Under the pieces are notes generated by a model. It did not search any database, was not told where the DNA came from, and saw nothing but the letters and a program-made list of their open reading frames with translations. Source: Prevotellaceae bacterium (lineage in GTDB: Bacteria; Bacteroidota; Bacteroidia; Bacteroidales; UBA932). From it: a DNA stretch of 11,411 nucleotides. Shown here one piece after another: positions 5,568-5,738 of the stretch (its first letter is position 1; each line of letters starts with the position of its first letter). The position numbers and the translations under genes were made by a program. The stretch is taken from assembly GCA_031288885.1 (NCBI GenBank), contig JAITQP010000130.1, forward strand, positions 1 to 11,411. Reading direction: 5' to 3'.

Positions 5568-5738
5568 ATGCTATGTATATTTAATATACTTGCCTCCCTG
5601 CGCTGCTCGCTACGTCGCTCATACTCGACCGACAAGTCTATAATGTACACACACACACACACACACACACACACACACACACACACACACACACACACAC
5701 ACACACACACACACACACACACACCTACGCTCGCTTAG
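5568..5738 (+). other. small open frame running through the AC repeat
   Basis: An ATG at 5568 opens 56 codons to TAG at 5736-5738. The first 26 residues begin MLCIFNILASLRCSL and include a second in-frame Met directly before the repeat. Then come Tyr, twelve Thr-His pairs from the AC repeat, and TPTLA. One more AC unit would shift reading into a frame that stays open to TGA at 5896-5898, giving about 110 residues. One unit fewer stops at TAG 5741-5743. It matches no family I recognise, and the repeat part is low-complexity, so it may be untranslated. It is listed because the repeat number would control its length. Confidence 0.15.
5647..5724 (+). repeat. (AC)39 dinucleotide microsatellite
   Basis: An uninterrupted run of 39 AC units (78 bp) lies about 275 bp upstream of the susC start codon. 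Perfect dinucleotide runs this long are rare in bacterial chromosomes and are prone to slipped-strand length change. Alternating purine-pyrimidine DNA can also adopt Z-form under supercoiling. The susC frame is closed by TAA at 5922-5924, so the repeat cannot switch SusC translation directly. An effect would have to be on transcription or on the leader. Confidence 0.98.

Follow-up and report, generated by a model that had tools for sequence, protein, structure and literature searches.

A candidate phase-variable leader-peptide attenuator built on an AC repeat upstream of a SusC/SusD gene pair in Bacteroidales

What is a long and perfect dinucleotide repeat doing in front of a nutrient receptor gene, and how could a change in its length affect that gene? 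The window analyzed here (the whole stretch of 11,411 nt from a Prevotellaceae bacterium) carries an uninterrupted (AC)39 tract exactly where the first-pass annotation had placed it, i.e., at positions 5647-5724 of the plus strand. The claim that this tract is beyond chance holds, since none of 200 dinucleotide shuffles contained a 20-nt AC run. Its location upstream of susC holds as well: 275 nt separate the tract end from the likely susC start codon (ATG at position 6000). The same annotation had proposed a phase-variation switch of the SusC/SusD genes, in which gain or loss of units would change promoter spacing or helical phase, as at nadA, where the length of the TAAA repeats alters promoter or regulator spacing. 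Our analysis supports a putative switch, for which the anatomy of this and many other loci speaks, and departs from the proposal as to its mechanism. The features recognized at the locus are listed in Table 1.

Table 1. Predicted features of the AC-tract locus and the genes downstream of it in the window.
Feature	Coordinates	Strand	Remarks
TATATTTG, match to the Bacteroidota -7 box TAnnTTTG	5524..5531	+	44 nt upstream of the leader ATG
Leader ORF in the present frame, MLCIFNILASLRCSLRRSYSTDKSIMY-(TH)n-PTLA-stop	5568..5738	+	From translation
(AC)39 tract, coding for Thr-His in any frame	5647..5724	+	Proposed frame-switching element
Stop codon TAG, present exit frame	5736..5738	+	Tract end +14; approx. 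85 nt before the hairpin; predicted OFF
Stop codon TAG, second exit frame	5741..5743	+	Tract end +19; approx. 80 nt before the hairpin; predicted OFF
Hairpin of -19.3 kcal/mol, with TTTT directly behind it (5880-5883)	5823..5879	+	Candidate premature terminator, picked by eye
Stop codon TGA, third (long) exit frame	5896..5898	+	Located 16 nt beyond the hairpin; predicted ON frame
SusC-type TonB-dependent receptor, 1042 aa	6000..9128	+	Plug and CarbopepD_reg_2 domains; gene proposed to be under control
Partner ORF, 669 aa, SusD-like	9171..11180	+	Named by position and by the first-pass annotation; presumed same operon

The tract of the window is a member of a genome-wide set and no lone oddity. 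The assembly to which it belongs (2.49 Mb in 320 contigs, put at 79% complete) contains 45 starts of AC/TG tracts of at least 18 nt (26 plus 19 in two scans), distributed over 43 sites. In a microsatellite census of 424 kb of contigs, picked because AC tracts were present in them, 45 AC runs were counted and every other unit occurred at most once above the thresholds; no microsatellite at all was found in 134 kb of contigs taken blind. In this genome AC is essentially the sole microsatellite. Among relatives, the search was limited to tracts starting with A after a non-C base, and the loci comprised 68 further listed places, which were fetched, and 29 loci returned. AC tracts are present in at least 10 of 11 genomes of the same genus among the matches listed; tracts of at least 26 nt starting with A were detected in 15 of 393 genomes of an order sample and 3 of 296 of a phylum sample (the genome of the window being included in all three counts). 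In one relative (G359), four tract loci (L325, L333, L334, and L335) are located on a single 3.29-Mb contig of a 3.3-Mb genome, and their presence in such a finished-looking genome argues against an assembly artifact. The window gave no match in Rfam at the gathering thresholds.

Throughout this set the tract is embedded in a short reading frame. An ATG-initiated ORF of at least 15 codons is open into the tract in the AC direction at 128 of 134 tracts (those of the 144 with at least 300 nt of left flank), and at 120 of the 134 this is so in exactly one frame; the corresponding controls gave 32/105 (TG direction), 410/1340 (shuffled flanks) and 37/129 (a point 150 nt to the left). Such a leader ORF is present at all 40 tracts of the window's own genome whose left flank measures at least 200 nt, and in 20 of 21 rows, or 19 of 20 sites, of a held-out set from 11 other genomes, in which two rows are halves of one interrupted tract and which includes the loci of G359. 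AC tracts with a leader ORF occur in 12 Bacteroidales families by assigned labels (main and held-out sets), about one in three of those families represented by a single tract being expected to carry such an ORF by chance. At three loci (L221, L086, and L117) the tract is interrupted or composed of at least two AC blocks, and the leader frame is still open. Because an AC repeat reads as Thr-His codons in every frame, the leader peptide ends in (TH)n. No purifying selection on the peptide was detected among six leaders of one paralogue set of G033 (pN/pS 1.7). The tract is a tandem repeat with a unit length not divisible by three, placed in a short ORF, as is the repeat of pil1-type switches.

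Promoter-like sequences were found upstream of the leader ORF. The Bacteroidota -7 consensus is given as TAnnTTTG (PMC7366714), and matches to it are present within 78 nt upstream of the leader ATG at 87 of 130 loci (31 of 40 in the own genome) compared with 12 of 670 shuffled sequences, and upstream of the leader at 14 of the 20 held-out sites. At 100-150 nt to the left of the tract, 42 matches were counted on the gene strand and 5 on the other. In the window, a perfect TATATTTG stands before the tract, whereas the susC promoter suggested in the first-pass annotation (TTTC-N20-AATTTTTG), which lies after the tract, is without the TA of TAnnTTTG; by eye, no clear -33 TTTG was seen before TATATTTG. 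A putative promoter upstream of the leader ORF, recognized by sequence only, is again the pil1-type arrangement.

The tracts have a fixed position relative to genes. On the AC strand, 82 of 90 tracts are followed, 20-450 nt further on, by the start of a gene of at least 150 codons, compared with a divergent gene on the TG strand at 16 of 117. Among the readable genes scanned with Pfam (23 of the own genome and 65 of relatives), the SusC-type Plug domain was found in 8 and 24, respectively. The other downstream families, among those listed, include FGE-sulfatase domains, AraC and LacI regulators, an ECF sigma factor, a two-component propeller regulator and glycoside hydrolases; many of the other downstream N-termini look, by eye, like signal or lipoprotein peptides.

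The three frames in which the tract can be left were followed at 81 loci, namely those where a gene lies within 450 nt and encodes at least 150 aa, or at least 120 aa where the locus end truncates it. Usually one or two frames stop soon after the tract, and another crosses the hairpin described below, often up to the gene start. The longest exit frame measures at least 150 nt at 71 of the 81 loci, compared with 53 of 196 draws from 49 control genes, 201/810 in shuffled sequences and 36/134 in the TG direction, and an exit frame extends to the gene start at 42 of 81 loci vs. 19/196 control draws and 123/810 shuffles. A short exit frame is frequent in controls as well (165 of 196 draws). A terminator-like hairpin with a T-run was found on the gene strand at 55 of 80 of these loci (one row per locus id), with counts of 20 on the opposite strand and 11 after shuffling; at the remaining 25 no hairpin met the criteria. 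At 48 of the 55 hairpin loci, the hairpin is preceded by the stop of at least one exit frame, and its end is reached or passed by at least one other; the shuffles gave this switch geometry at a mean of 19.3 loci (sd 3.4, maximum 28 in 200 rounds). For the set as a whole, the frame would decide between stopping before the hairpin and reaching it, as in pil1.

The window belongs to the 7 of 55 hairpin loci at which the automatic test did not find this geometry, because the scan preferred another, weaker hairpin at tract end +4 to +75; the geometry holds here only with the hairpin picked by eye. The latter (tract end +99 to +155) comes from a fold of positions 5821-5883, and the same stem appears in the fold of the 276-nt leader. 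Its stem is followed by only four T, and the 276-nt leader folds no better than its shuffles (z -0.39). Before the tract, the other two frames are closed at a distance of 3 and 63 nt; behind it, the exits measure 14, 19, and 174 nt. By frame arithmetic, the long frame is reached with 37, 40, and 43 AC units, so that one additional unit leads from the present state to the long frame and the loss of one to the other short frame. The first-pass annotation had suggested searching related genomes for the tract at the same locus. The orthologous susC of another species (G010; 85% identity over 507 residues) lends support to the arrangement: it is preceded by an AC tract of its own, which is interrupted, the exits measure 11, 25, and 180 nt, and a hairpin of -24.6 kcal/mol lies at 101-164. 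The regions after the two tracts align well and the leader regions poorly.

Tract length was compared between similar loci. Left and right flanks are each at least 80% alike in seven locus pairs, nearly all of them paralogues and none from strains of one species, and tract length differs in six. A pair in G359 with identical 110-nt flanks has tracts of 47 and 35 nt with the same exit frame, and a pair in G029 with 95-98% identical flanks has tracts of 61 and 45 nt with different exit frames, both short. The tract lengths of the whole set derive mostly from short-read assemblies. Four tracts at contig ends (L037, L100, L101, and L234) measure exactly 119 nt, as would be expected with an assembly k-mer of that size, suggested by "k119" in the contig names; the remaining tracts at contig ends are shorter. 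Of 21 own loci, 16 have the assembled tract in a short frame (exit of up to 62 nt; random expectation 9.3), and of 79 loci overall, 47 do (37.7 expected); assembled tracts lean to the predicted OFF state, with both states present.

We consider it probable, on this comparative analysis, that a phase-variable leader-peptide attenuator working like pil1 has this tract as its switch, the likeness being one of anatomy of the same kind, with no homology claimed. In the sequence, the promoter box is followed by the leader ORF running into (AC)n, three exit frames, the hairpin and the gene. The promoter would be used, the leader translated, and AC units added or removed by slippage. A ribosome in a short frame would leave early, so that the hairpin could form and susC would be OFF; a ribosome in the long frame would keep the terminator from forming, or carry translation up to or into the gene (ON). 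In the window, 39 units would correspond to the OFF frame and 40 would give ON.

An unlikely variant is that the leader ribosome is delivered to the gene or reads into it, by translational coupling or fusion, the hairpins being incidental. Some exit frames have the form expected: one reaches the gene start at 41 of 80 loci and continues more than 60 nt into the gene at 20 of 80, and in G359 it runs on for at least 1169 nt at 3 of the 4 loci. Yet at 39 of 80 loci no frame reaches the gene, the long frame of the window ends approx. 100 nt short of the susC ATG, and the hairpins are strand-specific (55 vs. 20 of 80). Since the long frame enters the gene at 20 of 80 loci, fusion may be the working mode there. 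It is very improbable that the number of units sets the distance between a regulator and a susC promoter placed after the tract. The tract should indeed be unstable and does sit upstream of the gene, but matches to TAnnTTTG within 100-300 nt to the left of the tract (134 loci) lie on the gene strand in 113 cases and on the other strand in 28, and a change in spacing leaves the open leader ORFs and the exit frames unaccounted for. Because the box precedes the tract, and because the tract is part of a leader ORF in which each unit change would shift the exit frame, a spacing mechanism is unsupported; a repeat of the nadA type, upstream of or between promoter elements and outside any ORF, is not what this locus has.

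The Thr/His-rich leader peptide with a hairpin behind it resembles the thr and his leaders, in which ribosomes stall at codons of the scarce amino acid. That the tract senses threonine or histidine shortage in this way is nevertheless scarcely credible: any AC repeat gives Thr-His in all frames, no thr or his synthesis appears among the downstream families listed (25/29 and 25/47), and stalling does not need the exit-frame geometry. We give as little credence to a neutral microsatellite or a dispersed mobile element carrying AC repeats by chance. Some loci do have flanks in common, but only seven pairs have flanks 80% alike and the ORF geometry is kept all the same; the fixed placement relative to genes (82/90 vs. 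16/117) led us to drop the mobile element. Taking the attenuator as the preferred reading, we lean, with less assurance, towards a genus-wide combinatorial lottery of nutrient receptors, lipoproteins and regulators, in which a standard cassette (promoter, leader ORF, AC repeat, and terminator) would let each gene switch independently by slippage.

Several further elements were noticed around the tract. In the window's genus, the first 100 nt after the tract contain a promoter-like TTG-N17-20-TAnnnT on the opposite strand at 46 of 89 loci, compared with 10 on the gene strand and a shuffled mean of 16; CGCGCG runs also follow the tract (23 of 89, shuffled mean 0.8). The corresponding region of the window is 5725-5790. 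The opposite-strand element could produce a (UG)n antisense RNA over the leader. Its location just after the tract had also raised the idea of a (TG)n-led RNA running away from susC towards the aconitase operon, which was overturned by the gene placement and the leader ORFs on the AC strand. That operon region (123-4989, minus strand) has successive ORFs for citrate synthase, isocitrate dehydrogenase and aconitase, named from their translations. Among the 11 genomes of the same genus (own included), a single further one, G008, has a close relative of the aconitase in full length (80%), and G001 has a 41-residue fragment at a contig end; no AC tract was seen by eye in the 1.5 kb upstream of the G008 aconitase gene. 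Positions 5175-5318 contain a 29-nt inverted repeat (97% complementary, arms 86 nt apart, with CGTCATTGCGAGCGAAGCG in the arms), which looks like a dispersed palindromic element.

If the attenuator reading is true, SusC/SusD systems would have a second switching route, slippage beside DNA inversion, present in dozens of copies per genome; nutrient uptake per cell would be partly random in these bacteria, and a mechanism described in a single species would be a genome-wide design in another phylum. If the lottery reading is also true, the leader attenuator would be the main phase-variation device of this genus and a low-copy one elsewhere. Long reads could then give the ON/OFF state of each locus directly, through the length of its tract.

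Phase variation of Bacteroides fragilis SusC/SusD genes is attributed to invertible DNA (Nakayama-Imaohji et al., 2009, cited in PMC11868660); phase variation in Bacteroidales is what we propose here too, by slippage in place of their site-specific inversion. In Bacteroides thetaiotaomicron, a member of the same order, short ORFs within long 5' UTRs have been called reminiscent of leader peptides (PMC7366714). They resemble our putative leader ORFs, and the part of that report considered here mentions neither a repeat nor a frame switch. With the contingency loci of Neisseria, Haemophilus and others, which have repeats inside coding regions, as outlined in PMC11868660, our set would have in common a frame shifted by slippage, many loci and surface proteins, but the repeat lies mostly in a separate leader ORF and not in the 5' end of the gene itself. 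As in nadA, a repeat stands upstream of a surface-protein gene; unlike nadA, the repeat here follows the promoter box and forms part of an ORF.

In Streptococcus gallolyticus, the GCAGA repeat of the pil1 leader ORF determines, through the frame, where translation stops relative to a premature terminator, and this makes pil1 phase-variable (Danne et al., 2014; PMC3894217), with a ribosome-induced loss of the terminator supported by mutants (PMC3894217). The loci described here share with pil1 and pil3, as far as these are described in that report, (i) a repeat with a unit that is not a multiple of three, located in a leader ORF behind a promoter (here a putative one), (ii) a stem-loop before the gene, which is a premature terminator in pil1 and a candidate for one at 55 of 80 loci here, and (iii) a short frame ending well before the hairpin (OFF, as predicted here), with the others ending at, in or past it (ON). 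As far as we found in the open-licence literature, this attenuator principle is known from that one species, and the same literature yielded no report of an AC-repeat leader attenuator, which is weak evidence of novelty. Judging from the sequences, the phylum would be new, as would the dinucleotide with its Thr-His leader, the copy number per genome and the occurrence in 12 families of the order by assigned labels. The pil1/pil3 system comprises a GCAGA pentanucleotide at two loci for Gram-positive pili, with proof from mutants; the one proposed here, in contrast, is predicted from sequence and combines an AC dinucleotide and a Thr-His peptide at 43 sites of one genome in front of Bacteroidales genes, with a frame that, at part of the loci, extends into the gene.
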